Assembly (NCBI GenBank): GCA_014871385.1
Contig: CM026424.1
Coordinates: forward strand, 1,922,001 to 1,986,000
DNA length: 64,000 bases
DNA from: Ceratodon purpureus
Taxonomy: Eukaryota; Streptophyta; Bryopsida; Pseudoditrichales; Ditrichaceae
Direction of reading: 5' to 3'
Both the position numbers and the translations under genes were made by a program. The notes under the pieces were generated by a model that saw nothing but the letters and a program-made list of their open reading frames with translations, had not been told where the DNA came from and searched no databases. Each line of letters begins with the position of its first letter. The first letter of the stretch is position 1. Positions 43,210 to 64,000 of the stretch are shown here, in pieces.

Positions 43210-43212
43210 GAC

Positions 43213-43220
43213 TATATAAA
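43213..43220 (+). promoter_or_regulatory. TATA box after array 1
   Basis: TATATAAA in the context GGGGGGACTATATAAAGTGA, 174 bp before the start codon at 43387. The last G-run of the array touches it. Confidence 0.65.
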
Positions 43221-43386
43221 GTGAGGAGAAGCTCTCGCCCCCCCCCCCCCCCCCCCACTCCTTTCCACAGCGGCTCCTTGTCTTCATGTGTGAAAACACA
43301 CCTTGCTTGGAACTGCTTATGTGGGAAGTCTTCATTTGGGGGGGGGGGGAAGTTGTTGATTTTTATTTTCAGGGATTTACTTTGCG

Positions 43387-44907
43387 ATGTCTTCTAGACA
43401 AGGCTCCGGCAAGCGGCCTATCTATGAGGACTTGGATGCTCTAGATGCGGTGGACCCTATGAGTTGCGTAACACCTCATGGTTCTACTAGTTCTACTCCT
43501 TCATCTAGCTCGAAGGGTAAAAAGAAGAAGAGTATTGTGGCGCACGAGAAGGATGACGGTTATCCACCATTGGAGTATACGCATTTCATCAGAAAGGTGA
43601 CCGTCGAGTACTACAAGGCCCGTACCATACGAATGTTGAAGGCAATGTACCTTGATCAAGGAGAGAATGGTATCTACAACCTCCAACGTGATTTGGAAAG
43701 AGAATTTTGGAGCGCATTGGAAGGGTCAGAGTTCTACATGGATTGCATGACGAAGTATTATCACAGCCCTAAGTGGTTGACACAACAAGTGAGTAGTGCT
43801 ACGACAAATGTCATTCATGTGTTTGAATCACATGTCAAGAAACCACAAGGCGAAGAATGGAGCAACCAAGACAAAGTGTTTATTCAAAAACTGATAACGG
43901 TTCAGGAGGCATGTCAGAGATGTTCTAAGGGGAAAACAAAGATTATGCCTTGGAATGAGCAAGCATTGAACTCAGCATTGGAAGCACACATGTATGGTGC
44001 ATTGATATGGATTCCGGCTACGGCCAAGGTTGTGCCATTATCTGGCTTCAATGCCGAGGGGGGGTATGGCAAAGTGCGAAAAGTGCGAATAGCCAATATG
44101 AAGAAAATTCCAATTCACATAGAATTTGCGGGAAAACTTTCCAAGGCTAAAACCGAAGTGAAGAAGCGAGAGGAACGGGCGATTGAGGCCACGGTTAACC
44201 CCGTAGAGCATCCGGGTGTGATAAAATTTTGGGCTTGTTACTCCAAGACCATGGAAGCTTATACCCTGTGGTGGAACGGAGATTGCCTCCGCAACTTCCT
44301 CAAATTAAATGAGAAGGCGTCCGAGGCAACAGATTACAAATAAATTTTGAAGTCGAAGGAAATGCCCATGGAAAATTGCCAGAAAATTGTTGCCTATCAA
44401 AAGAACCGAGGAATGTTGGCATGGAGTCTCATCTACGTTATGGACATAGTCTGTAAGGCTGAAATCCTCCAAAACGACTTAACGCAATTCAACATTCTAC
44501 TCCACTTTCCACCTCATGACAAGGATAAAGTATATATTGGTGTGTGCGATTGGGGTGTGGCTAGCAGAGTCATTGAGAAGAAGGCCTCCCCTTATGGTGT
44601 GATGGACCCCGATGAACTTGTACAAGTAAAGGAGAGGAGGGTAGGAGTTGCACCGGAGTTGTTTTTTTTATATGGCGACAAAGATGATGAGGAACGCAAT
44701 TCGGAGCGCATGAAGAGGATGCATCCATGTACGACGCAATCTGATGCATTTTCGGTAGGCCATTTGGCAAAGAAGATATGGAGAGAGGAAGAATGCGCAG
44801 AACTCTTCAAGGATTCAATCTCAATGATTGCATTCTCATCAAAGTTAGATGGCTTGGTTAACGAAGAGTCCTGCAAAGAGGCTTTCACATGCAAAAGTTG
44901 TGGATGA
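43387..44907 (+). pseudogene. Intronless kinase-like gene with one in-frame stop
   Basis: A single frame runs from ATG 43387 to a stop at 44905-44907. It is broken only by TAA at 44341-44343, with the same frame open on both sides (318 + 187 codons). Before the stop a glycine loop is visible (EGGYGKVRKVRI), then a hydrophobic beta stretch and HPGVIKFWACYSKT. After it come ILQNDLTQFNILLHF (catalytic loop, with His replaced by Gln), VCDWGVAS (DFG replaced by DWG), VAPELFFLYG and a D-x-F-S-x-G helix. The kinase fold is clear, and activity is doubtful even without the stop. The serine/lysine-rich N-terminus is unlike known families. Lack of introns and the array promoter suggest carriage by a mobile element. 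Confidence 0.65.
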
Positions 44908-45171
44908 TTTGATGAGTCCCCCTTACAACTTCCAAGCTCCCAATGGTTGTTTTAGATACACATTGTAGTTCCATAGTGATTTACGTTTGGAACATTTTGA
45001 TTGCCTATGTGGCCTTGTTTGCATGTTTCTGATATTTTAATAAATCCTTTTTCCGGCGTATATGTGCTCCGGTGGAACATGAAATGATATTGCTGGTTTT
45101 GTAATGGAATGAAAAAATGTTTAAAAAAAAAATTTAAAAAATTGTATGGCCCATTCACCGGGACTGCCCCT

Positions 45172-45503
45172 CGGAGAAGCTCGCCCCCCCCCCCTCCTCA
45201 GAAGCTCGCGCCCCCCCTTGCAGAAGCTCGCGGCCCCCCCCTGAGCAGAAGCTCGCGCCCCCTCCCCTTGCAGAAGCTCGCGCCCTCCCCCCTTGCAGAA
45301 GCTCGCGCCCCCCCCCCCCCCCCCCTCTGGACAAGCTCGCGCCCCCTCAGAGAAGTACTCGCCCCCCCTTACTGAAGCTCGCGCCCCCCCCCCCCCCCTG
45401 GACAAGCTCGCGCCCCTTAAAGAAGTTCTCGCCCCCGTTACCAAACACTCTCTCCCCCATGTGAGACGCTCTTGCCCCCTCAGGAGCTCGCGCCCCCCCC
45501 CCT
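45172..45503 (-). repeat. G-run/CGCGAGC array 2 (about 14 units, C-rich on plus)
   Basis: Units of GAAGCTCGCG followed by a run of 4-18 C. On the minus strand this is a G-run followed by CGCGAGC, the same core as the other arrays. The array ends 6 bp before the TATA box of the transposase gene. Confidence 0.85.
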
Positions 45504-45509
45504 CACAAG

Positions 45510-45516
45510 TATAAAT
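45510..45516 (+). promoter_or_regulatory. TATA box after array 2
   Basis: TATAAAT within CTCACAAGTATAAATGCCAC, about 207 bp before the likely start codon at 45717. Confidence 0.6.
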
Positions 45517-45716
45517 GCCACCAACTTAGGCCAAGCCTAATTTCATTTCAAATCATGGCTTCTAGTCCCGGAACTCCTTGTGGGCTCCTTGCTTGAGACT
45601 ATGTGCATCACATTGGCCTGTGGTTGATGTCTACACATACCATTTTTTTTTTCTCACATGTGTGATACTAACACTTGTAGAGTAGAGATCATTGTACTTT
45701 TCGAGAGACACGGAGA

Positions 45717-48225
45717 ATGGCAGGTCAACAGCGTCAATCGACAACTGAGTGGGCTCCGTGGTGGACGTTCATTGATAAGGACCATGTTAAATGTGTGTGG
45801 TGCAATTTCACTTTTCGTTATAAACGACAAAGAGCTATGAAGCACTATGGATGGGATGAAGGTTCAAGCAAGAGTCATTGTTCCAAGGCCCCTGCCGCCG
45901 TATTTAGGCGCTTTGCCAATTGTGGTAATGTAATACCAAAAAGAATGACACATGCGGAGATCTACGGCACTAACGGTGGTGATGGCAAGGCAGACTTCGC
46001 ACCATGTTCTAGCCAGTCTATGCTTGCTGAGCAATCTACGGAAGTGCCTCTAAGAACGGAGGAGGTCCAAGAAGAGAGGATTTCTCAAGTTGAACCGTCT
46101 CAGTCAACTCCGCTTCTAAGCAGAGGCGATTCATGTACACCAAAGTTTTACGGCAACAAAGTTTTACTGAGGCCTATCAGATTGGAAAGCGCAATGATTT
46201 GGATGAGAAATGGGCGGCCTTTTTTTACGAAGCGAATGTGCCTTTCAATGTGGTTAGACATCCATCTTTCATCGCAGCAGTGGAGGCAACCTCAAAAGCG
46301 GGTTTTGTCTACCGTCCACCAGCATACAACGCAATGCGAACCAAGCACATCCAGCCAACAAAGGAGCTTATCAAGACGAAAATCGAGGAGAATACCAAGC
46401 AGTGTATTAGCTTGTACGGGGCAACTATTTGCTCGGATGGATGGGACAACGTTGTTCGTCGGCCGTTGATGAATGTCATGCTTGTGTGTCCGGCAGGAGA
46501 TATATTCCTTGATTCCATTGATACAACGGGGAACAAGAAATCAAAAGCATACATAGCTGGGAAATTGAAAGAGTACATCAAAGAAGTTGGACCGCAGAAT
46601 GTTGTACAGATTTGCTCTGACAATGCTAGTGCGATGTTGGGAGCCATGGACCAGGTGGTAGAAGCTTACCCACACATTTACAAGCAAGGATGTGCAGCTC
46701 ACATCATGGACCTCTTACTAGAAGATTGGGGGAAGGAAGCAACCTTCAAAGAGCTGATTATCTTGGCAAAACGCATACCAAATTTTATACGTCGCCCCCA
46801 TGTGACCATGGCTTTGTTTCGCCAATTCAGCCCAAAGTTGTCTTTGGTGTTACCAGCGGAGACAAGATTTGGATGCCAATACTTGATGATTGTTCGATTG
46901 CTTGAACTGAGGGATGCACCAATTCAGGTGGTAGTCCATCAGAAATGGGACGAATATGTGGGTACTTTATTCAATCGGTCAAACGGGTATCGAGCTCATG
47001 CCTTAGCAGGTCAAGTACGGAGTACCATTCTCGATGAGACATTTTGGTTACGTTGTGAGAATCTTGTGCATGTTATGAAGCCGGCTATTGTGACCTTGAA
47101 GACCTTTGATGGACAAACATCGGCAATGGAGAGGGCGTGGTTGGCCATGAATAATTTGAAGAAGCATGTGTTCCGTCTACGGGATGATCCTTTTTTCCTA
47201 GACCCCGCTATAGCAGGGCGCTTTGAGAAACATTTTACGAAGAGATGGAAGATGATGTTGACAGATCTCCATTACGCAGGCGCCATTTTGAATCCCTACA
47301 TTTTTCCGGAGAGCCACAAGCTATTGACTAACAGTGCTGCGAAGCGTGCACTCCTGCAAGTGCTAATTCATTTGAGTGAGTGCCTTAAACTGGACCACGA
47401 TACTGTGTTGTTCGAGCTAACACAGTTTGAGGAACGCACCGGTCCATTCAGCCCTTTGGAGGCCCCAAACATTCGACAGACTAAGATGCTACCTCATCAA
47501 TGGTGGCAGCGGGTTGGGGGCGATGCGTTGCCCTTGATAGCAAAGCGCATCCTTTCGTTAACATGCTCGGCATCATTATGAGAGAAATTGGAGCATGTAT
47601 TCCTTTGTTCACAATAAGGTTCGCAACCGATTGGCAATGAAGAAGGCAGAGGACTTGGTGTACATTTACACGAACAGTAAGCTCCTTCAAGAACGACGTG
47701 GAGCGGATCCTGTTATTTGGTACGACAACCAACCGTTCTCCGAAGACTCGGATGAAGAAGTTGCAACCATGCACGATGAAGAAGTATGTGATGATGATGG
47801 AGATGAAGGATTCCACAATGGAGTTGAAGATAATGAAGGCAATGTTGACGACGGTGGAGTTCATTATACTCGTGCTACTATGGATGATGAGTATCCAGAG
47901 TTACCCGTGGACAATGCTGATGGTGTTATGCCACGCAATGAACACGTCAACCAGCCGAATGGAGTTTTTGACTGGGCAGGATTTGATGAAGAGGCAGCTA
48001 CTTCGCCTCACCACGTTGTCAATGAAATACAAACTAGAGGCGAGGTCACATACGATCGGGCAGACGATGATATGACGATGAACTTGAAGTTGAAATGTCT
48101 CAGCATCAAAGCGACGATGGTGGCGATAATGATGACATTCACCTCGTTCGTAGCATTTCCAACAATGACAATGAAGGAGGGGGTAACAACATGGGAGAGC
48201 AAATTCCAATTCCACAAGACGTTGA
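45717..48225 (+). pseudogene. hAT superfamily transposase (BED, DUF659, hAT dimerisation), frameshifted
   Basis: The N-terminal frame from ATG 45717 has a BED-type finger (CVWCNFTF ... HYGWDEGSSKSHCSK). The frame shifts near 46105 into the main body (to 47581). This has DUF659 features (ICSDGWDNVVRRPLMNVML, ICSDNASAMLGAMDQV, GCAAHIMDLLLEDW) and part of the dimerisation domain (HQWWQRVGGDALPLIAKRIL). A second shift near 47575 leads to ERNWSMYSFVHNKVRNRL, the conserved hAT C-terminus, then a very acidic tail. No introns are seen. Two frameshifts make it inactive as read. The acidic tail runs to the second CAGGG end at 48226. Like its two neighbours, it is driven from an array-TATA promoter. Confidence 0.85.
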
Positions 48226-48460
48226 GGGCAGGGTTGTCTATTCGGACGGACATGGGCAAAATTTCCGGACATAGACGGACGGACGGACGGACGGACGGAC
48301 CGGTCGGTCCCCGGACATAATCGGACATTGAGGGGAGGAGGAAAATTACTAAGTTAGTTTTTTTTTTTTACAACTTACCTATAGGGGAAACATATTGATG
48401 ACATGGACAACGAACGATGACGGGGAATTCCACATATGCAAAAGGGGTGCCAGCATGTGT
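48226..48460 (+). mobile_element. hAT-like left end (copy 2)
   Basis: Starts CAGGGTTGTCTATTCGGACG directly after the acidic tail of the transposase, with six or seven ACGG repeats and the same CCTATAGGGGAAACATATTG block as copy 1, leading into array 3. It is in the same orientation as copy 1, so the two do not form one inverted-repeat element. Confidence 0.5.
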
Positions 48461-48632
48461 AGGGGGCGAGAGCGGGTACAGAGGGGGGGCGCGAGCGGGT
48501 TCAGGGGGGCGCGAGCGGGTTCAGGGGGGCGCGAGCGGGTTCAGGGGGGGGGCGCGAGCGGGTTCAAGGGGGGGCGCGAGCGGGTTCAGGGGGAATGGGC
48601 GCGAGCGGGTTCAGGGGGGGCGCGAGCGGGTT
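48461..48632 (+). repeat. G-run/CGCGAGC array 3 (about 8 units)
   Basis: The cleanest array: most units are G(6-9) then CGCGAGCGGGTTCA. No TATA box follows. The next gene on this side is the 3' end of the RING gene. Confidence 0.85.
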
Positions 48633-48888
48633 TCTCGTGCGGCCCATTTTGTAGATAGTAAATTTTTGACAATGCAAAAAAACCTAACATTTTCATCAGA
48701 ATAATATATTGGGGCTAAGCGCAATGACAAATGTGTAAATTCAGATACTCGTGAGCCAAAATACATGGACTTTGCAATGTTGTATACATTTATGAAAGTA
48801 AAAGCATTTCATTACCAATTCAAACCAAAACATTACAAAAACTGTAGTATATGAAAACTAGTCACTTAGTACTAAGTTGTAACTATTC

Positions 48889-51270
48889 CTATTCATCTAC
48901 ATCTACTCCCCCTGTGCCACTTGGTCCCGCTCCATCGTCCAGCGTCAAGCTGCGCCTGGCTCTCGTCCGTGTCCGCCGGAATGGGCCATCACTTTCACTG
49001 AGAGAACGCAAAATTTGCGAGTTCCTCAATTCTCTCAATGTACGCAATGTCTGTGGAGAGTGTTCCTCCAGAAGAAAGTCAACAGCCTCATGTTTGAAAA
49101 TTAACTTCCACTCCGAAAGAGACATTTGGACTGCATCTCGGGCGGTCAAAGACATGAATTGACCTTCGAGATCTGTAACCAATTCCCCGTCCTTGTTCCA
49201 TATGAGGCCTTTTGGGTGATTACCAAGTTGGAACTTCCTATGCTTCGGATCCCAGTATCCATTCAAAGTCTGATAGAAGAAATTTCGTTTCCCTTGGTCC
49301 TCCTTCTTTGATCCAATTATCTTCTTTGCCACCCTCACAATCTGATTGGGGTCATCCTCCCACCCCAACTCGTCACTTACATTGCTCTTGAAGACCGAGT
49401 GAGTCTGGGCCCGCCAACTCCAAATCAAATCTTCCCCCCACATGTTGCGGTACTGTTCACCTGGTGTGTTTTCGGGATTTCTCTCATGGCTTGGTGGCAT
49501 GTATGGAGTGAGTCCAAAAACCTCGTACAAGCGTTCATGGAACGGGGATTTGCACACCGGGCAAAATCTCCTTACCAAAAAAATGTTAATTAAACACATT
49601 GGATGGAACATGTGGGTACATGATCCAACTGCCCATCCACCCTCAGGACCAAATGTATTTAGACACACACTACATTCTTTTGAACCATCCATCACCCACG
49701 GTTGAGGATTTGGCCAAAGCTTTCTGCTATTAACTCCTTTCTTCATTTGAAGATCATGGCACGAAGTTGCGTTCTTCACATCGAAATTCAACTGGGCCCA
49801 ATCTATGAGTTCAGGATTCGATTCTTGCTTTGGCATGTTATCTGGATACATATCATCTGCGTTAATCCATGAAGTGAGGCCAAAATTTCTTCGTCTGTTG
49901 TGTTGCAAGTACGATTCGTCGATCTTCTTGAACTCTAATGCAATTTGGCGACCGCGATCAACGCTGAGAATGGTTGCCACTTTCCACTCGTAGTATGCTT
50001 TAGCAAACTTAGAAACAAGGAGCCGCAAATCATTATTGGCTCTCTTCAATGTCTCCACTTCTCCCGTTAGAGCATTGGGTGGAAATGACAAGGAATCTTG
50101 ACTTAATGGTCCATCGATGTCCACATAGGGTCGCGGGTATGGGGCTGGTGGAGGCAATATCACTCCAACTCGTCGTCGTTTTGCTGGAGTAGAAATATTC
50201 TCCAACACACCGGCAGTCGCAACATCAACCGTGTTGTTGATGTAAGATTCATCCACCAACATTGGATCTTGAACTACAGGTATATCATTGGCTTGAGAAG
50301 ACTGAGGTCTTTCTTGTTCTTGCAATTGATTGCGCAAATCTGATATTACTGCATCTTTTGCTGCTGATTCCAATCGTAGTTTTCGGATGGTCTCTTGTAA
50401 CTCTGCAATGAAGCCATCCTTTTCTATAACCTGTAATTGCAACTCCCCGACCTCCTCGGTCTGGTTAGACTGGTCATTTCTAACTAGAACCGGCATGCCA
50501 AGAACCATCGTAGGTTCAGTTCCGACCACCTCCAAATTAGCTGCCGTATTTGGATCGTTTTCCACGAAGATGGTGTTCGCATCGTCGTGAGGTTCTATGA
50601 CGTCCGCTGGATGGTTCATTGGAGGCTCTACAGCCATATTTGCTGGTGCTGCAATTCTACGTGGCACTCTTTCTCCACGACGACCATCGGAATCAGAATC
50701 TGGTTCAGACTCTGCTGTATCAGGCTCCCGCACTTGTGTTTTTTCCTTCATTTTTTTCCCCAGGCCACCATCTGCGTATTTCCTTTGTTTGGGAATGTCA
50801 CGCTCTGTCGGCGCCCTAACACTCGGCGTGGATTTGATGGTGGACCAATCCACCACTTTGTGAAGCACCACCTCAGCATACACCATTCTGCAAATGAACA
50901 ATGGTACTTCATTGCGTTCAACACATCGTTGCTTGTATAGATGCTGGTAAACTTGTATAGAACGTTCAACAAACTCCGCATTTAAGCAATAATAGAGGTT
51001 AGCCTTGTCTGAGATCCTGTGTTTTCTGTGCCGATCATGTGGAAATATTTTTGTGATGTGGCACCACTCAATGAATTCCTCGCATGTGGAATATTTCCAC
51101 GGTTCCGGCTCATCTTGCCAACCTCTAAATGCCAACTTTGTCGGGTTGTTCAGCACATGAAGCCGCTTCTTCATCTTCTTACCACCACGCTTCCGTTCAC
51201 GATCTCTGATTTTTTTCTTTTCGACCTTGGTGAGTGGCCTTTCCTCCGCCGGATCTGGGTTTCCCTCCAT
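48889..51270 (-). CDS. Intronless coiled-coil / RING-H2 protein, 793 aa
   Basis: One uninterrupted frame. The N-terminus is very basic (VEKKKIRDRERKRGGKKMKK). Residues ~70-145 form an aromatic/Cys region and ~190-210 an acidic linker. Residues ~270-330 are a leucine/glutamate coiled coil (LQVIEKDGFIAELQETIRKL). A basic patch, STPAKRRRV, may be a nuclear signal. Around residue 555-600 is a RING-H2 finger: C-SV-C, GSCTHMFHPMC, then RRFCPVCK, giving C3H2C3 spacing and pointing to ubiquitin ligase activity. Downstream are a tryptophan-rich region (MWGEDLIWSWRAQTH) and an arginine/serine C-terminus. I do not recognise the family outside the RING. It is the only intact member of the array-TATA gene trio and is read toward the transposase. 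Confidence 0.8.
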   Translation of the reverse strand: MEGNPDPAEERPLTKVEKKKIRDRERKRGGKKMKKRLHVLNNPTKLAFRGWQDEPEPWKYSTCEEFIEWCHITKIFPHDRHRKHRISDKANLYYCLNAEFVERSIQVYQHLYKQRCVERNEVPLFICRMVYAEVVLHKVVDWSTIKSTPSVRAPTERDIPKQRKYADGGLGKKMKEKTQVREPDTAESEPDSDSDGRRGERVPRRIAAPANMAVEPPMNHPADVIEPHDDANTIFVENDPNTAANLEVVGTEPTMVLGMPVLVRNDQSNQTEEVGELQLQVIEKDGFIAELQETIRKLRLESAAKDAVISDLRNQLQEQERPQSSQANDIPVVQDPMLVDESYINNTVDVATAGVLENISTPAKRRRVGVILPPPAPYPRPYVDIDGPLSQDSLSFPPNALTGEVETLKRANNDLRLLVSKFAKAYYEWKVATILSVDRGRQIALEFKKIDESYLQHNRRRNFGLTSWINADDMYPDNMPKQESNPELIDWAQLNFDVKNATSCHDLQMKKGVNSRKLWPNPQPWVMDGSKECSVCLNTFGPEGGWAVGSCTHMFHPMCLINIFLVRRFCPVCKSPFHERLYEVFGLTPYMPPSHERNPENTPGEQYRNMWGEDLIWSWRAQTHSVFKSNVSDELGWEDDPNQIVRVAKKIIGSKKEDQGKRNFFYQTLNGYWDPKHRKFQLGNHPKGLIWNKDGELVTDLEGQFMSLTARDAVQMSLSEWKLIFKHEAVDFLLEEHSPQTLRTLRELRNSQILRSLSESDGPFRRTRTRARRSLTLDDGAGPSGTGGVDVDE

Positions 51271-51388
51271 CGTGGTGTACTGGTAAAGTTTTGTGTGTTA
51301 AAAAACACACCAACTCCTCAAAACTTCCCCCAATTGATTTTACAATTTTCCTCCGTGGTTGATTATGGTATTGTAACTATACTTTGTG

Positions 51389-51543
51389 GCCCACCCAAGT
51401 ATTCAGCAATAAGCCACCGTGAGGTAGTTTAGGGCCCGAATTCTCGGATGAGCGTACAAAATACGGTAGAACGAGGTACGTGGCGTTGTCAAAATGCTGT
51501 AGACCCCACCCAAGTACTCAGCAATAAGCCACCGCGAGGTAGT
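51389..51543. repeat. Direct repeat in the RING gene leader
   Basis: About 40 bp reading CCACCCAAGTAYTCAGCAAT then AAGCCACCGYGAGGTAGT occurs at 51390-51429 and again at 51506-51543, in the region between the TATA box and the start codon of the RING gene. Confidence 0.75.
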
Positions 51544-51602
51544 GCAAGGCCTGAGTGCCAAGGTGGAGCTTAAAAAGTGGGGGGGGGAGGGCGCCCCCTT
51601 CA

Positions 51603-51610
51603 CTTATATA
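51603..51610 (-). promoter_or_regulatory. TATA box of the RING gene, next to array 4
   Basis: On the minus strand the array's final C-run is followed by GACTATATAAGTGAAGG. This nearly copies the sequence around the kinase-like gene's TATA box (ACTATATAAAGTGAGGAG). It lies about 335 bp before the start codon at 51270. Confidence 0.65.
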
Positions 51611-51612
51611 GT

Positions 51613-51880
51613 CGGGGGGGGGGGGGGGGGGGGGGGGCGCGAGCGGGGTCAAGGGGGGCGCGAGCGGCTGAGGGGGGGGCGCGAGCGGGATCAAGGGGGG
51701 GCGCGCGCGGATTTAGGGGGGGGCGCGAGCGGGTATCGGGGGGGGGGGGGCGCGAGCGGGTATCGGGGGGGGGGGGGCGCGAGCGGGTTTGGGGGGGGCG
51801 CGAGCGGGTTCAGGGGGAGGTGCGCAAGCGGGTATGGGGGGGCGCGAGCGGGATCAAGGGGGGGCACGAGAGGGTCCCTT
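51613..51880 (+). repeat. G-run/CGCGAGC array 4 (about 11 units)
   Basis: Units of up to 23 G followed by CGCGAGCGGG and a variable four- to five-base end (TCA, TATC, ATCA). This is upstream of the RING gene on the minus strand. Confidence 0.85.
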
Positions 51881-52420
51881 CCTTAAAACAAACTCTCATT
51901 TCCTTACGAGTAGCATTGAAGAAGGTTGGAAGACAATAATAAAACAAATGCAATGGATTTTTTCACCATTTCTCTCAAAAATAAAATTAAAAATTAAAAA
52001 TTAAAACGAGATATTAAAATAAGGAATATTGATTTGAATAATTTGGGGATGAGATATCAAATTATAGAAAAACAATCATGACTATAATAAGGGACTCGGG
52101 ATAAAAAGGGATGAATAACATGGGATGAAAGAAGTTATCAAGATGAATAAATCTCATGGTGATTAGAAACTGAGTTATGCCATAACGGAATACTGATCTA
52201 ATGCACCATGAATAATATAATGTTGACTACAAAAAAATTAGTGTATTAATATTAGAAGAGATGTGGAAATCTAAAAAAGATAAAACATTGGAAGAGACGA
52301 AGGGAATAAAATAAAATCAATATCATGGAGAGGAAGAGATAAAATGAATAAAGTAAAATCAATAGCATGGTCTAGAAGACAGTTGAATTAGAGTTCAAAA
52401 CAAAAATCTATATATTTCAT
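51881..52420. other. AT-rich spacer and degenerate satellite edge
   Basis: No gene. From about 52290 the sequence resembles diverged pieces of the 210-bp satellite (GATAAAATGAATAAAGTAAA, AATAGCATGG). Confidence 0.45.
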
Positions 52421-53260
52421 TGTACATACGGATCCTACAATGCTCTAACATATAATTAAAAATATAAAGAATCATAAGGAAGGGCTCGATGCAATTGGTT
52501 TGGCAGATAAACGGAATAAAATTAAATCAATAGCATGGAGTGGAAGAGATAAAGGGAATAAAATTAAAAGAATAGCATGGTGTGGAAGAGAGTTGGATTA
52601 GAGTTTAAAAAAATAAAAAATATAATGCATTGTACATACGGATCCTACAATGCTCTAACATATAATTAAAAATATAAAGAATCATAAAGAAGGGCTCGAT
52701 GCAATTGGTTTGGCTGATAAACGGAATAAAATTAAATCAATAGCATGGAGTGGAAGAGATAAAGGGAATAAAATTAAAAGAATAGCATGGTGTGGAAGAG
52801 AATTGGATTAGAGTTTAAAAAAATAAAAAATATAATGCATTGTACATACGGATCCTACAATGCTCTAACATATAATTAAAAAAAAAAAAAATCATAAAGA
52901 AGGGCTCGATGCAATTGGTTTGGCTGATAAACGGAATAAAATTAAATCAATAGCATGGAGTGGAAGAGATAAAGGGAATAAAATTAAAAGAATAGCATGG
53001 TGTGGAAGAGAGTTGGATTAGAGTTTAAAAAAATAAAAAATATAATGCATTGTACATACGGATCCTACAATGCTCTAACATATAATTAAAAATATAAAGA
53101 ATCATAAAGAAGGGCTCGATGCAATTGGTTTGGTTGATAAACGGAATAAAATTAAATCAATAGCATGGAGTGGAAGAGATAAAGGGAATAAAATTAAAAG
53201 AATAGCATGGTGTGGAAGAGAATTGGATTAGAGTTTAAAAAAATAAAAAATATAATGCAT
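52421..53260. repeat. 210-bp AT-rich satellite, four units
   Basis: TGTACATACGGATCCTACAA starts units at 52421, 52631, 52841 and 53051, and a truncated fifth begins at 53261 (period exactly 210 bp). Units differ at few positions. Inside each is a shorter internal repeat (AATAGCATGGWGTGGAAGAG twice). Confidence 0.95.
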
Positions 53261-53267
53261 TGTACAT

Positions 53268-53842
53268 ACAACACCATATTCATTAATTTGGGACAAAATG
53301 GTGACTTTGGGATTTAGAACCCTAGTTTTTCGGGAGCCTCAACCATGAGCTAAATCCACACTTAAGTCAACAATGAGCTAAATTATCTCAATAATTTAGC
53401 TAAATAAATATTGTTCATTGTGAGGTAATATATTTGCTTCCTAATGTTGTTAATAATTGTAGGGACCATTGAGGAAATTGCCTTCTGTGATGTATGAGTA
53501 GGGTTATATTGATTCAGGAAAACAATGTGAGCCATGTAGGATATAATACATACGTTACATAAACAATTACACGACACATTAAAGTATGCATTTAGTCCAG
53601 AACGAGCTAAAATTCAACCAAACAAAGCGGTTTCTTCTAACATCACCGCATTATGCATCTAGTCCAATGGGAGCTAAAATTTAAACAAAAGAAAGCGGTA
53701 TCGTCCAACATCAAGGCATTATCATCATTTTTGAAAGGCAAATATACTGAACTGATACGACATTGTATCACATATTTATTGCATGACGTGGGAATAATGA
53801 AACACTGAAATAAATTAAGTGAAGTAATTGGCCACTGAAATT
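53268..53842. other. Spacer with half-palindromes
   Basis: It begins with ACACCATATTCATTAATTTG, related to the end of the 389-bp element. Half-sites of the dyad family (GAGCTAAA / TTTAGC) occur near 53347, 53373, 53396, 53605 and 53670. No gene. Confidence 0.4.
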
Positions 53843-54676
53843 TCACACACGGGACTTCATCTCCTCTCTTGCCTTCAGTTCTTCCATGGCCTTCATAATC
53901 GCACCCCTCCGTGAAACTGTTCTCGGGTGGGATTCAGAAAAAACAGAAGTCTTTGTTTGAAGCCGAAGAATTGGGTGCGCTAAAGAGTCTCTCATCTGCC
54001 TCTTCAAGGTCGCTAGATCTGGGCCTGTAGAGGAACAGGAACGGGTTGGCTGAAATCTTGATAATCGAGGAGGTTTAGGGGCACCACTTGACATTGTCGG
54101 CATTGCGTGTTTCGAAACAACACAATCTCGACCATGTTGCTCAGTAATTGGCGTAGGCAAAGAAATAATACTATCTACGGATTTTGTTCCTACAACATGG
54201 TCTAAATTAGTAAAACTAACAACAGGATTAGCTAATGTCTCAACTACCGGAGGGTCACATTCTGACCCAAGGCCACCATATAATTGCCTTTGAGGGGTCA
54301 ATGCTGTCTGAAGCGTGGGAGAGGTAGAACGCTCCCGTCTCGGAGTGCATCTCCCAACCAACTTCAAAGGAGAAGGTGAATTAACTGCAATTCGACCCCC
54401 TCCACTGCTAGGAGGACTATTCACAACATCTTGCTCCAAGTCCCCTCTTGAAAAATCTATAGCCGCAGATGCAGCATCAGTTGCAGAGAACAATAAAAAC
54501 GGTTTGGAGTACTCTTGACCTCCTAATGCTCCACCTTCGGATATGGAGCATGTACCGACCACCTCCCCGCTTGAAAGTATGGATGGCGCTCCCAAAGAAC
54601 GATCGTACCTGCAATCAAAGCCACCTGAAACGGAGTGTACTGGTCGAACCTGGAGAAAATATACAAAAAAGAACAT
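53843..54676 (-). CDS. Ser/Pro-rich reading frame, probably a 3' exon
   Basis: The frame is open for 277 codons. A strong acceptor (TTTTCTCCAG) at 54650-54651 suggests the exon really starts at 54649 (VRPVHSVSGG ...), giving 268 residues to the stop. It is rich in Ser, Pro and Thr (SGGGRIAVNSPSPLK, RERSTSPTLQTALTPQRQL) and ends with a charged helix (AIMKAMEELKAREEMKSRV). No domain is recognised. It may be an alternative last exon of the large gene just upstream or a separate gene. No donor in the preceding exon matches its phase, so I leave it apart. Confidence 0.45.
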   Translation of the reverse strand: MFFFVYFLQVRPVHSVSGGFDCRYDRSLGAPSILSSGEVVGTCSISEGGALGGQEYSKPFLLFSATDAASAAIDFSRGDLEQDVVNSPPSSGGGRIAVNSPSPLKLVGRCTPRRERSTSPTLQTALTPQRQLYGGLGSECDPPVVETLANPVVSFTNLDHVVGTKSVDSIISLPTPITEQHGRDCVVSKHAMPTMSSGAPKPPRLSRFQPTRSCSSTGPDLATLKRQMRDSLAHPILRLQTKTSVFSESHPRTVSRRGAIMKAMEELKAREEMKSRV

Positions 54677-54750
54677 TTGGATCCATTAGAAAAAAGATCG
54701 GAAATGACAATAAATATAAATGGCAACTTAGGTGAAAGAACGTTCAAAAA

Positions 54751-55062
54751 GACATTTACGAAAACAATTCACAAAGTTTAAGGAATACATTTATAAAAAC
54801 ATGTACAAAATAGTCAACAGTTTAGCTCACTGTGAGCCAGTTTAGTCCGTCCTAAAAAATTTCAAACAGCCCTATGTTTGCCAAAGCGAAAACATATACT
54901 TCTGACACCCATGTTCTGTGTTAAAAGACATTTACGAAAACATTTATAAAATAGTCAACAGTTTAGCTCACTGTGAGCAAGTTTAGATTGACCTAAAAAA
55001 AGTTAAAAAAGACTAATGTTTGGCAACGCCGCAAACATTGAATTTGACACCCATGTTCCGTG
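54751..55062. repeat. Imperfect tandem duplication including an exon end and a dyad
   Basis: GACATTTACGAAAACA, TAGTCAACAGTTTAGCTCAC and GACACCCATGTTCYGTGTT occur twice in the same order, mostly 141-142 bp apart, with an extra ~35 bp in the left copy. The right copy contains the last codons of the phosphatase-like exon, so the left copy carries a pseudo exon end. Confidence 0.75.
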
Positions 55063-58000
55063 TTGAGAGCGCCATCCCCTCTAGAATGTGATGAAATAGT
55101 GGATCGTCTTGGGACAGAGGAGGGACTCCGATTCTGTTGTCATCAACGTACTCTACTAGTTTCCCATTTCCCGCATTCTTGTCCAGCGTTGACAACCATG
55201 GGGCCAATATGGACATAAGAACACAATCTTCCGCATCTTTCTCAACCCATGATTTTAAAAAAATAGCATTTCCAGTGTTGTTACATATGCTCTTCTCTGG
55301 ACTATCATCTATCAAGATTGTGTTTGCACTGTTGAAGGTGGAACTCTCCCCGAAAAGGGCCCTTGACAAAGTTTTGAGAAATATTGGCTTCTCTCCGTTC
55401 GGGTACTTCAAAATAGTACGACGAGATGTTTCAATACGGTCGCAATCTTCTTGACTTAGTATAATCGAAGGCATTGGCAAGCCATTGAACAGATAATTTA
55501 CAACATCCATCGCTGTCGTGCACTTCATTGAACTCCAGACGACGACATGAGCAAAAGTGTTCACGAATGATATAAAATCTGAAAATCCCGGCCGAACATA
55601 CACAGCCTTAGGACCTATAAGAGTGGGGAATGTTGGGCTTAGAACTCCTAGGTTAACGTCGTTCGTCACTAAGTCCTTCAATCCACTCCGCCTGTGGATG
55701 CATTTACTTAGAATTCCATTAATGTCCAATACAACGTTCAGCCACTTCTTGGGAGCTACACCCTTAGAACCTCGTGAGACCTTTGTAGACGCTTCAGCCT
55801 GGAAAAGCAATGAAACAGAACAAAAAGCGTTACCTGATGAAATGCAGAAGGACGAAAAGGCGATGTCAATTTGAAATTCTGATTTGAACAATTGGAACGC
55901 AATTCCACCTCGCTAACCAGAGATTTAACAGCAACCGGGCGATGAACATAGTCAGTTGCTTCTAGCTGACCATCCATTCAGAACAACAATTTAAAGAAGT
56001 CAAGTTCTTGTAAAAGTCAAAACATTTGTAATGTGAAACAAAAACTATTGTGCATACAAAACTAGGGTGAAATGGAAACCCGGATGTGGAGTTATAAGCT
56101 TTATATATGTGCACTGCCACACTTCAAAATGTCTGTACAATCACTTATCATTCAGATAAGGTATACTGTTTAAGCAAAGAACGATTAAGGTCTAACACTT
56201 AGAGTTTTAGATTGATGTAAATCCCAGAACCGCATACCTCAAGACCGTCTGCACCCTTCTGGCTCTCCAAGACAGTTGGCAAAGCATCTGGGAGTGACAG
56301 TGATATCTCCGGGGAGTTCTCATAATCTACCAACTCATCCTCTTCTCCATCAGTAGGAAGATTTGTATCCAAGTGGCAATCTGAGGGCCCTTCCTTCGAG
56401 CTCTGGTTGTTCACCGAGTTACCCTGCCCCTGCTCAGACACATTAGAAAAGTTCTTAACAACTTCCATCGAGGTTCGGTCACCACTAACACCTCCATCAA
56501 TGTCATCATCCTCATCGGGAGTTTGAGGCACCGGGGTATCAGACTTGCAGGTGGTCTTCGGAATCGGCTGTTGCAAATCTTCCTCAGAGGCTGTTTCAGC
56601 CAAGACAGGGGTAATCACAGGTAATTGTAAAGGGGGAGGATTTTCAGGCAAAGCAGTGTCGGCGCTTACACTGCCAGGTACATCCAAACCAGTTTGCTCA
56701 CTGTGAGCTAAAACCGTCTGGTCGATACTCGGTGAAGGTGCCAAGGATGGAGCGGATACAGAACCAGAGTTCCGAGCTACCATAAGAGCGAGCATTGCTT
56801 TCATGTCAGCAATCTCCCTGTCGCGTTGCTTCTCTCTCTCTTGTTGTTCCCTCAGTTGAGTCTCTGCCCTCTCCTTAGCAAGCCGGGCCTCCTCCACAAG
56901 AATTCGAGTGGCCTCCGCATCCCTCTCATTCTTCTCCTGTTTCTTCTTTTTCCGAGCCTGGTTCCAATCAAACCAATCAATGTCTCTCTTGACGACTGGT
57001 TCCCCAGGATGTGGAGCCTTACCGGCGGCATTAAACACCTCATCTTCACCCTGTGGAACAGTTTCAAGACGAACAGCAACAACAGGAATAACCGGTCTCG
57101 AGGATTCGCCTTGAGTATTGGCACTAAGAGGGGGCTCATCTTCATCATCGTCCTCGGAGTCGCTAAGTGGTACTATGGGAACCCCGTCTGAAGTCTTCGC
57201 ACTGACCTTCAACACAACAGTATCTTCCATCGGCTCTGGAACATCATCGTCATCGATATCCCTTGAGTCTTCCTCCTCCCCTTCTGTGCTCCTCCTCGAT
57301 GATGATCCCACGAGACCAGCATTGATATCTTGATCAAGGGTGAACTTCTTCACTAACCGGCGACCCAATCTAGAACTCTGGCTTCTGAAACGGGATTCAG
57401 GTAGAGGGCAAGAGCCTCGAGCCCGAGCAGACATGTTTAGCTCACTGTGAGCTAAAAGCAGCTGCCTAGGCTCTGTTCGTGGGCTAGGTGGCGGCGCATC
57501 CTCTTCATCGAAGCCAGCTCCGATGTCTTCACCAAGCTCGCCATCAGCACCAGCGTTGTCATCCACGTCATCCGGTGATTCTCCGTCTTCGTCGTCGCTA
57601 GATTCCTGTACACCAACTGGACGATCGAACTCGTCGCTCTCAAGGAACTGCTGTCTCTCCACTGCGGGCTGTGTATCTTTTAAATCATAGACGGAGTTCT
57701 CCTGGATGAAATCATTGATATCTAGGGTCGGTACAAGCTTCGACATCTCTCTGTAACACTCACTGAAGTTGTGGTCGATGATTCCATAGTAAAACATACC
57801 ATAAATCTGGAACCAATACACATGAAATAACACTGTTAGTCACCTTCAAAGCTTCCCAACTTAGCTCACAATGAGCTAAATGACTTACCAGTCATACTGA
57901 GGAGCTACACTACAGATACAATCAACTAAAAGTACTAAGACATTTAATCTCCTAAAATCAATTGACGCTCCTTTATACTTAAAATCCGCAAACATCTGAA

Positions 58001-60112
58001 CAGAAGGAGATCTTTCCAGAATAGTGTTATAAACAGACAGGATAGTTCTATAAACAGTCATGATAGTGTTATAAACAGGATAGTGTTATAACATTTTAAG
58101 TTCAAGAGAAAAGAAACACAAGTATATAATATAGCAACATCTTAATACATCAAATGGTTTACTGAACTGACGATTCAACTCTGTTCTTCTATGAATTAGC
58201 TGACTGTGAGGAAATAATATTTCTGAAAAACGAAACTTAGAAAGAAATACGAAAGGCACATTATCATCTTACCATCAAGAATTTTAGCTAATATATTGTA
58301 TCAGATCGTATCAGAACAGTAAGGTAACTTTCAATGGTTATATTAAATTCAGAATAGAATGTACAACGTTTAGCTCACAGTGAGCTAAATAGGTCAGTGT
58401 CAACGTCGTCATTTCTGTCTAGAGTTGAACTATATAAGATCAGATAAATACGACACAATTACAGCATTAGTTTTACCTAAATCATGTTTCAGGAAAGATA
58501 TCTTACCCGAGCTGCCAGCATGCACTTCGTTCCACTGAAGACCCCCCAGAAGTTCTCACCCGGCATACAAAATGTCTTTAGTAACTCCAAGTAGAACTCC
58601 ATTCGCAATTCCCGAGCGTTGAGCCGTAGATGAGCTTCCTTGTACAATCCATACACTGTATAGTAGTTCGTATTTGGAGCTGTATAAGACGCCTTCACTT
58701 TCTTCTTGTCATGTTTACCACCTGCACGCAACAAGAACACCAAGTACAGTTCGTCCTTTCCAGAGTTTCGGGTGGTGTGGTCGTTGAGGCGTTCATTCTT
58801 AGCAGGTATGTACCTAGAAGGAACTACTGTATATCCTTTCATGTGCTTCTCGGCGTAGGCGATCGCTTGGGCATTTCGCTGCTGCGTAGCAGATATCCAG
58901 AGCCACACTTCCGGGTCTGAGATTGAAGGCCCCTTCACCCCCATCAGCTTCCTCAGGAAAGCCTTGAAGAATGGATTTTCTACCGTATCGTCCTTTGTAG
59001 AATGACCTGGTGTGTCGCGGAAATCCAGCAGTGCTAGACTCAGGTGAGGGATATCATCATACTTCCATTGTACTCCGAACTCCATCTTCAGAGCATTGAA
59101 TAGCCGAGTTTGGATTCGACCGGCTGGAGCAACAAAGTTTCCCTTGACCTCCAAAAATCTGGCAAAGAACGGAAAGACCTCGGGCCACCGCTCCGTCAAG
59201 TTACGTGCCCTCTTGAACATACCCTTCTTCTCGGCGCGGAATCCGTAAAATCCTTTGTCAGGCCGATCGAGGAGGACATTCAATGTAGCATTAGAAACAC
59301 CGGACTCGGCTTTCCAGTCGTGCCACTTCTTCTTGTTAATCGTGTAGTCAGGATTGCAGAGCCCGAGACTTGGCTTGACATCGTGAAGCTCTTGGATGCA
59401 AATCCGCTTACGCTTCTTCCTCGCCATCCAATCCCCAGAAGAGTAATGATGGGGTAGCACCGTACCGCGTGTCTTGTGCACAGATACTTTCGGGTACTTG
59501 TACTTCCAGTTCTTGGTAAGCATCAATAAATGACGAACCAATGCCTTTGTTTCTTCTTCAGTCATGAAACCCATCCCGCGGAAGAAGCTACGCTGAAGCT
59601 GGAAGGCTTTACCACCCTTAAATCCCTTCTTCTGATTGAAGCGCTCGCATGTCTCGGGATCTATCAGTTCACCTGTGCTATGCTTCGTAATGAATTCCCT
59701 CCACAAAGTGAAATGGTCCTCTGCTGCGGTAATAATCACCATCTCATTCTTCACATCCGCCGGCCCCTGTACACTCTTACTGTCTTTGTTCGGGTCAATA
59801 TTCTGAAATCGTTTGATTAGGAGCTCAAGAAATTTCTGAAATACAACAAGACGAAGAAAATGTTAATAGTTCTGTATTTCAGCAAACATAAGACTAATAA
59901 AGGAATTCGAACCCAATATAAAAACAATGAGACTACTGACCGTATTAGCAGAGTCACTGAAAACTAAGTGATTTATAGAATTACAGAACAGTTTATCACA
60001 GTATGGCTTAATTCCTACGGTTTTCGAGTACGGGGTTGCAGACATCGATGCACTAAAGTCGGGTTCAGTTCATGGTGAGAGAAGATGTAGATTTAGCTCA
60101 CTGTGAGCTAAA
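54821..60112. repeat. Scattered 21-bp dyads inside the large locus
   Basis: Seven copies of TTTAGCTCAC + one base + GTGAGCTAAA: 54821-54841 and 54962-54982 (right arm degenerate), 56693-56713 (left arm TTTGCTCAC) and 57436-57456 in coding sequence, and 57861-57880, 58369-58389 and 60092-60112 in introns. On the minus strand the two coding copies encode VLAHSEQ and LLAHSELN. Confidence 0.85.
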
Positions 60113-61602
60113 TACGAGACAATGACAAGTTCATATCCCTTTACGAGTAAGAAGTATACCTGAAATTTCTTCACATTGTAAACCGCATCATTGTTTCTCA
60201 TATTATCCTTAATGTTCGTTGGTCTCCCCTCGCTGATCCAGACATTTCGGGCACTTAGTATATTCGTCCCCCACGTAGGTTGAGCATGGTTAAGATGGTT
60301 ACACATGTTGTAGAATTCAGAGATCCTCACAAGGATAAGGGGATCCTTGGACCAAACTATATATGCATCCCAAGTTTCGAGCTCTTTCTTTCGTTTCTCC
60401 CCACATCCCTGAATTTGCAACTCCTGTGATGCAACAATACTATGTTGCCCGTTGATAATCATAAACTTGCCATCCTTGATATCACTCCATGATGTTGGCT
60501 TCTCTGGCAACAGCTCCATATTGTCCTGCACTGGCATAAGGCAAACTTTCTGCCTTTGGTTAATATCACCCATGTGTACGAGCTCCTCCTTCACGGACTT
60601 TACTATATCCCGCTCTAAGTTACGAATGATATATTCATCCTTAGCAATGTGGCACTGCTTTACATTCACTGGGAATGTCGTATTCATATTGAATACGTAG
60701 GCCTCGGTACAGTCGTCCCAGAAGGTCTTCTGGATCTCCGTGAACTTCTCGTAATCGGGCACCTCCTTATCCTTCTTTTTCGTCTTCTTTGTCTCCTCAG
60801 TTTGCGTGAGGACTGAACCCGAACTACCGGCCTTTGCTGTCGGCTTTCTCTTCTTCTTGGTAGGACCGTCCTCATCAGCTTCCACTCTGGTTCTCTTTAA
60901 GGCCCTGGACTTGGCCGGAGTTGGAACAGCCGTCGAAGGTCGTTGTTGAATACTGCCCCGAGAAGGTGTAGCAGAGTCGTCGCGGGTGGAGACAACACCT
61001 GCACTCTGTAACGGCACGGGTGGGGTCTTCTCTACTACCGTATCCGTTATGAAGTGGGTCAAGGTAAGGAATACCCGTGAGAGTCTTCGTCCAAGTGCCA
61101 CTGCTTTCAGTGGGCTACCGTCTGAACTCTTCCAGGAAATCTTCTGTATTTCGTCCATCAAACTCTCACCCGATGTACCCATTAAGCTGCTAATCAATGG
61201 CTCCGGGTCAAAGTTTGTGACATTACTTTCGACTTCGATGACAAGGGAGTGTACATGTGTTAGGTCACACTCAGACTCCTGATCCACTGCCCCTACAACA
61301 ACAACTATGTAGCTCCCGTGATGCTCCTCAATCACCTTAACTCTCTCGACAACACATAAATCTAGATATCGAGGCGAATTCTTTTCTTTGTGTAATATCC
61401 GCACGAACTTCTGGTACCTAGAGACAGCCATTGACCATCCCTCTACATGGTCTTTGAACTTCCATAGCGATCCGTAGGAGTGTTCCAAGGAGGCTTCGAA
61501 GAAAGGCTCGTCGGGATCCGGGTTAATAAAAGGCTCGATGAAGGGCTCGAGGTGACTCATATCATACCCGTCGGGCATGAGTACTTTAGTTGGTATAGTC
61601 AT
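55013..61602 (-). CDS. Giant ParB-like / degenerate DNA methyltransferase / FCP1-like phosphatase protein
   Basis: Exons 60160-61602, 58507-59835, 56238-57806, then 55965 to 55909 or 55834, and 55013-55798 join in phase, giving about 1,726 or 1,751 aa. Exon 1 has a nuclear-type basic stretch (TKKKRKP) and a ParB/sulfiredoxin-like core, KDGKFMIINGQHSIVASQEL. Exon 2 has KDELYLVFLLRAGGK. At its end, running into exon 3, is YLELLKTFCMPGENFWGVFS then GTKCMLAARIYGMFYYGIID. This copies the motif X / motif I end of permuted N6/N4 DNA methyltransferases (L-K ... PGD..L-D-P-F-x-G-S-G-T ... A ... G-x-E). No D/N-P-P-Y/W catalytic tetrapeptide is seen, so it may be inactive. Exon 3 is acidic with a coiled coil. 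The last exon has the FCP1/NIF motifs NVVLDINGIL, VYVRPGFSDF, VVVWSS and ILIDDSPEKS. Domain calls are by eye. Confidence 0.65.
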
Positions 61603-61634
61603 CTGCAATGAATGTCAAGAACAAAGTTAAATCA

Positions 61635-62498
61635 TTTAGCTCACAGTGAGCTAAATATGCCTTCTTCTATACTCTAAACAAACTGTTCTATTCATTATAT
61701 AAGTGAACTTTAGAATCGTGTATTGATGTTACTAAACAAGAAGTGGTATTATAAATAATTTAGCTCACTGTGAGCTAAATTGCGTACCTTTCAGACCCTG
61801 CGATGGATGCTCCCAAATCCTTTTAGAACAGTTGGGAAATAAAAGTGCATACCTGAGTTGAGAAATGAACACGGTATTAGATTCTATTGAAACGAGAGAG
61901 TACTATCACTTTAAATGAAAATCAGCCTACAACTCAAGCAGAATTCAGATCACAGTATGCTAATATGCTGTTTATCTTAATTGTAAAACCTAAATGCTAG
62001 TAAAACTGACTTTGAATGTTTAAGTACTTAGCTCACAGTGAGCTAAATTAGAGTCAATCCCAAACTCAAGATGTTTCATTTTCTTCAAACCTCCTTCTCA
62101 CTTGCCAAGTCCGTGACGTAAACATACTGTTTTTCTGGTTCTTAGATAAATTTAGCTCACAGTGAGCTAAATTGATATCGGATTGGGCAGCATTATGCCT
62201 CCTGCGAGCTAAAATTTGACTAAATTTTCGAGAATTTCGCTCATTCTGTATTAGGTCATTCTAAATGCTAGTAGAATTTAGCTCACAGTGAGCTAAATTC
62301 TGGTCTTTCTGATGAAGGTTCTGTTTTCAGTGAACATAATACTAGTTTTACCCGGATTATTGTTCTATCTCTAAGATACATTATTACAGATTATACCAAC
62401 TTTAGCTCACAGTGAGCTAAACATTTTCTTCTTCTCTCAACGCACTTCTGGCTCACTCTGCATCCAATTAGTCATAGTTTAGCTCACATTGAGCTAAA
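61635..62498. repeat. Cluster of seven 21-bp dyads upstream of the large gene
   Basis: Copies at 61635-61655, 61759-61779, 62028-62046, 62151-62171, 62277-62297, 62401-62421 and 62478-62498, spaced about 80-270 bp. Several extend further, and the copy at 62272-62300 is a perfect 29-bp palindrome around its central A. All lie between the first coding exon and the upstream leader of the ParB/methyltransferase-like gene. Confidence 0.9.
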
Positions 62499-64000
62499 CG
62501 TCTATTTACATTACTATTTCAAAATGAGTTTAAACTACTCTAAATCTCACATATCAATATGAAACATACAAACATGAATACTTATGAACTTTTCTATATC
62601 AATTAACATCAAAATGAGTTGCAACGTCTGGCAAAGACCGAAGAAAATGATAGTAGAGGGTACAAACACACAATTACAATACGATCATAAAATGCATATA
62701 TAAAAAACACATACAACAATATCATTGAATTCCGACTGCATTGGAGAACAATGGATTCAACTGTACAGGGAATGAGCTCTACATATGATAGAGTTCAATG
62801 AGAAACATCATGATAATTAAAACTCCCTACAAATCTGAAGAGAAAAAATTAAACCTCTGCGAATTCTACAAACAAACATTTATGAATCTACAACGATGCC
62901 GAAAATATCTAGAACCGCTAATGCAGTACTACTAGCTCATACAGTGTTATAACATAAAACATATAGGACACATCATGCGATCTTCTTGGAGACCTAGACA
63001 AATACTTGAAACGGATAATATTTAACAACACCACAGGTTAGAGAAATGGAAATGTGCATACCAGTACTCTAAAAACTTTGATCTGCGTGCCGACTTGAAA
63101 TTCGCGATCTCACACCGTTAAAGAAGTCTACACGCCAGCAGTCGTATACAACCTAATAGACAAAGGTTAATATTTCAATATCAGTCTAATTCACAAGTTT
63201 GTTGTATCTATACCGAATTAAATTAACAAATCGAATGTAACAAAGTTCTGTAAAACTAAGACAAACCACGCTGTTCTTGTGCAACACAATAACGACAACA
63301 AAATGAATGAAGGGTCACTCTTACCGTGTGTGTCAAAACGTTCCCTAATAAAATTTCGCACAAATTCTGACTACGAAAACCCGAAAACTGGTTTGATATC
63401 GATATCTGCACAAAAGACGCAAGAGTCCGAGTACATTTAGATGGGAAAGTTTAGGTCGTCGCGGGACAGAAACTGGACGCGAAAATGGAAACAAAACCTT
63501 GCAAACGCAGAACAGAAAAACAATCATTTCTACAACATAGAGAAACCTACTAACAAACCTTACATCAACTGCGGAACAGAAGTTACAGTTGCTTCACTGC
63601 CTAAAAACCTCCGCTTTGGATCAACAAAGGAAATCCAGGAGCAACAAGAAGACCATCAAGTCGAAATATACACAGGAGTAATAATAATGCAACATCAGGA
63701 CATAAAGAAGAAAAAAACTAAACAACATAAGGCATACAACGTACCTTCGTATGCAGCGCCGCCCAGCAACAGTTCCCGAAAGGAAACGAAAAAATTCGAT
63801 ACGAACCTAAACACCTAAACCTCTACAGAGGTAACTCTTGCGCCGAAGATGAACCGCTCTAGGGTTTCTAGAATAGTTAGAATCTAACCACAAGAACTAT
63901 CGACAATGCCTTTGATCATCCTGAACAAAACAAACTCGGGAGCACCTACACCCAAATGATCAACACGGTTCTCCTGAAAACAAACCTAAAACACTAAACT
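62499..64000 (-). promoter_or_regulatory. Probable leader exons and promoter of the large gene
   Basis: The coding start at 61602 lies directly after an acceptor (CATTGCAG then ATG), so the transcript begins further right. A good donor (CATACGAAG then GTACGTTG) near 63740-63760 ends a likely untranslated first exon. Upstream of it is a telo-box, AAACCCTAG on the minus strand (63859-63867). Another donor-like site (TACTG then GTATGCAC) is near 63060. No coding domain is seen in the interval. Confidence 0.4.

Follow-up and report, generated by a model that had tools for sequence, protein, structure and literature searches.

A Multicopy DNA Transposon of the Moss Ceratodon purpureus Carries a ParB-like, Methyltransferase-like and NIF-like Fusion Gene together with Family-Specific Palindromes

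Introduction

In the En/Spm (CACTA) transposons, an accessory protein, TnpA, binds a repeated subterminal motif and affects transposition as well as methylated promoters. The moss Ceratodon purpureus is reportedly the source of a further group, Lanisha (Maumus, McDaniel and Carey 2020), which is said to be enriched on the sex chromosomes. Lanisha appears in the accessible part of PMC12730594 as a named DNA transposon group whose ends are mostly 5'-CA..TG-3' and whose target-site duplications (TSDs) measure 2–5 bp. In the VANDAL elements of Arabidopsis, the motifs are 8–9 bp long and not palindromic, and VANC acts in anti-silencing with loss of DNA methylation; as far as the available part of that report goes, related VANC proteins have different motifs, and co-evolution of protein and motif is reported (PMC5735166). 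Here we describe a stretch of 64,000 nucleotides from C. purpureus (GenBank assembly GCA_014871385.1, contig CM026424.1, positions 1,922,001 to 1,986,000), referred to in full length as the window, which holds the left part of a DNA transposon with a gene joining ParB-like, methyltransferase-like and NIF/FCP1-like parts and with many copies of one 21-bp palindrome. Divergent families of this gene carry palindromes of their own.

Results

The fusion is encoded by one minus-strand gene at window positions 55013–61602, with four coding exons that give 1,708 amino acids (aa) and a stop; the splice sites define three introns, each of them GT-AG and in phase 0. The exons are:

60160..61602, minus strand: exon 1, 481 aa, with the N-terminal region, a basic linker and the ParB-like NGQH region; ATG at 61602, donor GTATAC, phase 0; aligns with four divergent loci.
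58507..59835, minus strand: exon 2, 443 aa, of helical appearance; by eye it may include a helix-turn-helix, and it encodes the bulk of the methyltransferase-like part (LLDFRD ... FSGTKCMLAAR); placed by splice sites, alignment and hhalign.
56238..57806, minus strand: exon 3, 523 aa, which completes the methyltransferase-like part (IYGMFYYGIID) and goes on into an acidic, charged stretch of low complexity; placed by splice sites.
55013..55798, minus strand: exon 4, 261 aa and stop, a NIF/FCP1-like HAD phosphatase domain with D-x-N-G replacing D-x-D-G; placed by PF03031 match and alignment.

The same arrangement is found in four loci of divergent families (L043–L046), in which introns 1 and 2 have matching splice points, exons 1 and 2 are 29–43% identical to those of the window gene, and a NIF-like exon comes next in each case. 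Because these loci repeat both the splice points and the order of domains, the fusion is genuine and not a chance joining of separate genes, and the exon order kept across families argues against exons on separate transcripts. The original prediction of a single fused gene at this position, made from the DNA letters of the window, thus holds. Exon 2 of L046 spans two frames, because of either an additional intron or a broken frame.

The ratio of nonsynonymous to synonymous substitution rates (dN/dS) is low wherever it could be read. Against L015, the window gene gives 0.062 in exon 1 (dS 0.83) and 0.044 in the first 391 codons of exon 2, and against L019 it gives 0.070 in exon 1 and 0.023 in exon 2 (93 codons); in the remaining 8 of the 12 comparisons with the window gene, synonymous sites are saturated. 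Between L043 and L044, the NIF exon gives 0.135, with exons 1 and 2 saturated. Since these values are low, the measured parts of the protein, including those that do not look catalytic, are maintained under purifying selection.

The gene is repeated many times in the genome, which was searched over 362.5 Mb in 151 contigs. A 207-aa query covering the ParB-like region gives at least 150 matches (the best 150 of 555 candidates were scored), five of which are 100% identical over the query, one of these being the window itself. By hand count, 95 of the 150 scored matches, in which a few loci appear twice, lie on contig C6 (110.5 of the 362.5 Mb), which may be a UV sex chromosome. Three other copies match the window from 53265–53270 to 64000 with 99.0–99.2% identity and have unrelated left flanks. 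The one large copy that was read end to end, copy A, is 21,392 bp long, with perfect 25-bp terminal inverted repeats (TIRs) and ATAA on both flanks. The corresponding features in the window are:

53270..64000, no strand: left ~10.7 kb of a ~21-kb TIR DNA transposon, which continues past the window.
53270..53294, plus strand: left TIR, AACACCATATTCATTAATTTGGGAC, found again, inverted and without mismatch, at the right end of copy A.

The element is a multicopy DNA transposon, as evidenced by its TIRs, its target duplication and copies with different flanks, and the original description of the locus as an unusual plant gene was wrong. A second gene, transcribed divergently from the fusion gene, matches DUF7869 with E 7.5e-45, its sole Pfam match at E up to 1; on our own reading of its motifs, DUF7869 may be a DDE transposase domain, a name that Pfam does not give it. 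In copy A, one long opposite-strand frame is the counterpart of the DUF7869 frame of the window copy. The latter is split between two overlapping frames (L041 6770–9075), and because of this split the window element may depend on other elements for its movement.

The palindrome of the window family, P1 (TTTAGCTCACWGTGAGCTAAA), is a perfect palindrome of 21 bp. The window holds 14 copies with ≤3 mismatches, eight of them exact, all within 54821–62498; in 100 shuffles of the window the count is 0. They fall into two sets:

61635..62498, no strand: seven P1 palindromes with 0–1 mismatch, directly 5' of the gene, with start-to-start steps of 124, 268, 124, 126, 124 and 77.
54821..60112, no strand: seven further P1 copies with 0–3 mismatches, in the 3' flank (54821, 54962), exon 3 (56692, 57436), intron 2 (57860, 58369) and intron 1 (60092).

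The two exon 3 palindromes (56692–56712 and 57436–57456) are coding and are read as LAHSE-type peptides. The window's own copy has a second array, of ~25-bp period, which starts 5 kb beyond the window edge and lies upstream of the DUF7869 gene; the sites of this array are 1–4 mismatches from P1, none being exact in that 10-kb stretch. Near the right end of the element, 125-bp repeats contain sites 3–4 mismatches from P1. Copy A has 65 half-sites at ≤1 mismatch, compared with a mean of 1.7 and a maximum of 6 in mononucleotide shuffles. Genome-wide, there are 439 exact P1 sites and none of the reversed-pattern control, and all 50 listed P1 sites lie within ~22 kb, or one element length, of a scored ParB-like match.

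A search for recurring palindromes in the four divergent loci, which took no account of P1, gave P4 (TTATCCTCGASTCGAGGATAA) in L043 and L044, P2 (TTTAGCTCGASTCGAGCTAAA) in L045 and P3 (TTCAACTCGASTCGAGTTGAA) in L046. Like P1, all are perfect palindromes with 10-bp arms around one central base. We scored P1–P4 at ≤3 mismatches in 53 sequences, which are not all independent, some having been fetched through a palindrome (L001–L004, L047–L052) and others being pieces of the same copies. The 30 loci closest to the window gene (L005–L034, of which L005 is the window itself) contain P1 and none of P2–P4; L043 and L044 contain only P4, L045 only P2, and L046 P3 plus one P2 site at this threshold, with none exact. 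As background, no exact palindrome with 8-bp arms occurs more than once in any of five 10-kb tiles of the window outside the element; by the same measure, one palindrome occurs 7–17 times in the four loci and 11 times in the element.

Across the genome, P2 has 2,154 exact copies and P4 has 145, with controls of 0 for both. Where P2 and P4 sites lie by genes, they form two arrays ~7–9 kb apart (C1:301920-302317/309345-309747 and C5:1878840-1879345/1888278-1888558). Each of the four families has its own palindrome, arrayed close to the start of the ParB-like gene; the window family and the mapped P2 and P4 loci have a second array ~6.5–9 kb away. The genome contains further ParB-like families, for example at C6:25829077.

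Among the listed P4 sites, 17 of 50 are near scored ParB-like matches and 33 are alone. All six of the lone sites that were fetched lie near the middle of elements of ~257 bp, with inverted ends ACCATATTCGTTA (in one case ATTTGTTA) that resemble the ACCATATTCATTA of the window element, and 4-bp duplications flank all six as read by eye. When these miniature elements are aligned with the 10-kb pieces of big P4 elements (L043/L044), the alignment covers little beyond the palindrome; the exception, in one alignment, consists of low-identity simple repeats outside the element. The window itself contains an element with the same type of ends:

33966-34358, no strand: 393-bp miniature transposon with ends AACACCATATTCG..GAATATGGTCAT, TTAT on both sides and the end type of the P4 miniature elements.

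The palindrome is absent from this element, which rules out that it is indispensable in all miniature elements.

The three parts of the protein differ in how well they can be assigned. The NIF/FCP1-like end is the firmest, and here the original prediction was borne out: exon 4 matches PF03031 with E 1.8e-14 and 54.2 bits against a cut-off of 21.8. A single-sequence search of PDB chains with the window protein gave no relevant chain, and a five-sequence profile reached the chain 2hhl, which is like a C-terminal domain (CTD) small phosphatase, with an E of only 0.015. The textbook substrate of the NIF/FCP1 family is the CTD of RNA polymerase II. The catalytic motif D-x-D-x-T/V is incomplete in all four loci in which it is readable (DING, DLNG, DLNG, DVNG), so that the nucleophile Asp is retained and the second catalytic Asp, replaced by Asn, is lost.

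The ParB-like assignment comes from the NGQH motif, which is conserved in all five loci. The ParB-like core originally claimed is not confirmed by Pfam: scans of five families with the HMMER filters on gave no ParB family, PF02195 included, at any E up to 10. The nearest profile is DUF6551, presumably ParB-like, which one member alone (L046) matches with E 0.0082, below the profile's cut-off; families without any relation come as close by chance (E 0.0061 with exon 2). Sequence searches of exons 1–3 against Pfam, PHROGs and PDB, with exon 3 covered by two of these searches, likewise found no relevant ParB or methyltransferase family above cut-off, and no relatives of the ParB-like part were found in the viral contigs, genome contigs and phages searched. 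One phage stretch at E 2 was dropped as chance, since it lies on the strand opposite to an annotated gene. In exon 2, the segment WHDWKAESGVSNATLNVLLDRP may form a helix-turn-helix (by eye); it varies little among P1 loci and more between palindrome families, a pattern that relatedness alone could explain.

Across the junction of exons 2 and 3, the methyltransferase-like part weakly resembles a permuted N6/N4 methyltransferase at its motif-I end. The window protein has no direct Pfam match to N6_N4_Mtase (PF01555), and the resemblance originally claimed survives only as an hhalign link, in which the FSGT..AARIYG..GII stretch falls on a PF01555-positive family from the same genome, at the motif-I end of that family (P 0.0046, with a probability of only 7.6%). 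None of 150 column shuffles reaches the score of 29.6 (the best gives 27.1), and the reversed and exon-1 controls score 20.0 and 13.3. The intermediate profile was built from nine of ten fetched loci, L060 being left out for want of a frame with the chosen motif. Sequence comparison does not establish homology of the protein to ParB or to methyltransferases, and the lack of a significant profile match to either, which the original prediction had itself named as evidence against it, holds for direct profile searches. The missing D/N-P-P-Y/W motif was correctly noted: [DNS]PP[YFW] is absent from the window protein and from exons 1–2 of the four other loci, and the corresponding place (by eye) reads LLDFRD, LIDLRN, LMDLGN, IIDFRF and LIMDFRN, with D-x-R in four of the five.

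The PF01555-positive loci were rejected as members of the window gene family, as tblastn with the gene found nothing significant in the ten that were fetched (L053–L062; C8:9595672, C12:14530065, C3:17622469 and others). They form a separate multicopy family whose exons seem to be split; the printed loci show IDQPF/ILDQPY and ASTGAS motifs, and the family matches PF01555 at E 5.8e-8. Among the best 150 of 773 candidates, the genome as a whole has at least 32 PF01555 matches, all above the profile's cut-off. Nearly intact and found in a plant, this methyltransferase-like family would merit separate study.

Finally, one further frame and two sets of tandem repeats lie in or beside the element:

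53843..54685, minus strand: further open frame, 280 aa, no Pfam match; a third gene or a last exon.
52300-53263, no strand: tandem repeat with a 210-bp period, copies 91–92% identical to the first, almost reaching the left end of the element at 53270.
43096-51885, no strand: scattered G-rich tandem repeats of ~21 bp of the GGGGGGCGCGAGCGGGTTCA type, with C-rich counterparts at 45164–45510.

Serine/proline-rich frames similar to the 280-aa frame follow the NIF domain in L045 and L046 (by eye).

Discussion

On the basis of these sequence comparisons, the fusion protein is probably a factor encoded by the transposon that binds the palindromes of its own family and controls expression or transposition. 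The original view that it reads DNA rather than methylating it fits the palindrome data. We put forward more tentatively, as possible though short of probable, a protein–palindrome code private to a eukaryotic transposon superfamily, in which a reader derived from ParB and methyltransferase parts, its catalysis lost, is joined to a CTD-phosphatase-like domain; new families would arise when reader and palindrome change together, and the reader would control the element promoters and admit miniature elements with a captured palindrome. On the more probable reading named first, the fusion protein would bind the palindromes of its own family as a sequence-specific dimer, and protein and palindrome would have shifted their specificity together. 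Reading of the palindrome would fall to the ParB-like and helical part; the methyltransferase-like part would handle DNA as a non-catalytic scaffold, and the NIF part would either act upon a phosphoprotein or recruit one. The likeliest use of such a factor would be to switch on, or keep unsilenced, the two diverging promoters of the transposon, and it might also mark the ends and the miniature copies for the transposase.

Several observations weigh against a palindrome-reading role. Among the 50 listed P2 sites, 20 have no listed ParB-like match nearby (19 in one cluster and one alone), the other 30 being near one. A fifth family (L067/L068; C5:3937480-3943979), with a ParB-like first frame of 464 aa, shows no recurring palindrome in the 6.5 kb read, so that arrays in all families are unsupported; this family may be without palindrome sites or may carry them elsewhere. 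The comparison rests on four palindrome types, with genome-wide counts covering P1, P2 and P4. The missing ParB match in the Pfam scans and the miniature element at 33966–34358, with its similar TIRs and no central palindrome, belong here as well. Moreover, as one element holds both protein and palindrome, the two would diverge together also if another linked protein, such as the transposase, bound the site.

This last point leads to the main competing explanation, in which the putative DUF7869 transposase would bind the palindromes and the fusion protein would have another task, such as modifying chromatin or phosphoproteins. The P4 miniature elements, which share essentially only the palindrome with the big P4 pieces and have TIRs like those of the window element, are what one would expect of a transposase signal, and the DUF7869 gene has one of the arrays immediately upstream of it. 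However, arrays lie upstream of both genes, and sites also occur in introns and exons; the first 1.5 kb and last 1.0 kb of copy A contain no palindrome at ≤4 mismatches and at most half-sites; the 33966–34358 element, which lacks the palindrome, counts against a transposase signal too. We consider this explanation unlikely, if still a serious one.

A less probable alternative, to which we give little credence, is that the fusion protein is enzymatically active and, like the bacterial ParB-methylase fusions, would put chemical marks or nicks on its palindromes. The order of its parts resembles theirs, nicking by the ParB domain of the Bacillus cereus ParB-methylase is described in the available part of PMC5512222, and the purifying selection also speaks for this reading. 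Yet the five loci lack [DNS]PP[YFW], the ParB homology is not significant, and in the four readable loci the NIF motif carries Asn at the place of its second Asp. A stationary host gene among repeats, with which the intact frames and splice sites would agree, is in practice refuted by the at least 150 genome matches (from 555 candidates), of which four, not counting the window, are identical over 207 aa, by three copies that share 10.7 kb and a left edge between unrelated flanks, and by the TIRs and TSD.

If a palindrome-reading factor is what the gene encodes, the four protein–palindrome pairs in one genome would make the co-evolution of reader and site directly testable by swapping. Should the protein indeed keep transposons unsilenced, plants would have, next to VANC, another anti-silencing system, made of different parts. 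The copy number of P2 (2,154 exact) and the 95 of 150 scored matches on C6 bear on how transposons fill sex chromosomes, if C6 is one.

In the literature searched on ParB in moss, transposons and eukaryotes, on palindromic or subterminal repeats of bryophytes and on Ceratodon DNA transposons, with few subscription papers covered, no description of this system came up. The transposon may already be known: the window element may be a Lanisha, in which case only the palindrome system would be new. Set beside the description of that group, it has AACACC ends and a 4-bp TSD, and beside the reported enrichment on sex chromosomes stand its 95 of 150 scored matches on C6. The likeness to CACTA TnpA is functional, and the sites here are palindromic and also lie in introns and exons. 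With bacterial ParB–parS, the element has in common a ParB-like motif and several palindromic sites near the gene, here in four families; it differs in being a eukaryotic transposon without a significant ParB profile match. The ParB-methylase fusions, as the accessible part of PMC5512222 presents them, share the order of a ParB-like followed by a methyltransferase-like part, but here the catalytic motif is lost, and a long acidic linker and a NIF domain are added. The nearest precedent of the proposed factor is, by analogy, VANC. As VANDAL is described in the available part of PMC5735166, both systems comprise a plant DNA transposon with an accessory gene and short motifs in tandem, mainly in non-coding DNA, and in both, related proteins go with different motifs, a likeness of the systems as described. 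The motifs here are instead perfect 21-bp palindromes, the opposite gene matches only DUF7869 and no MuDR-type transposase (Pfam, E up to 1), and the anti-silencing that was shown for VANC would be the corresponding role of the moss protein.

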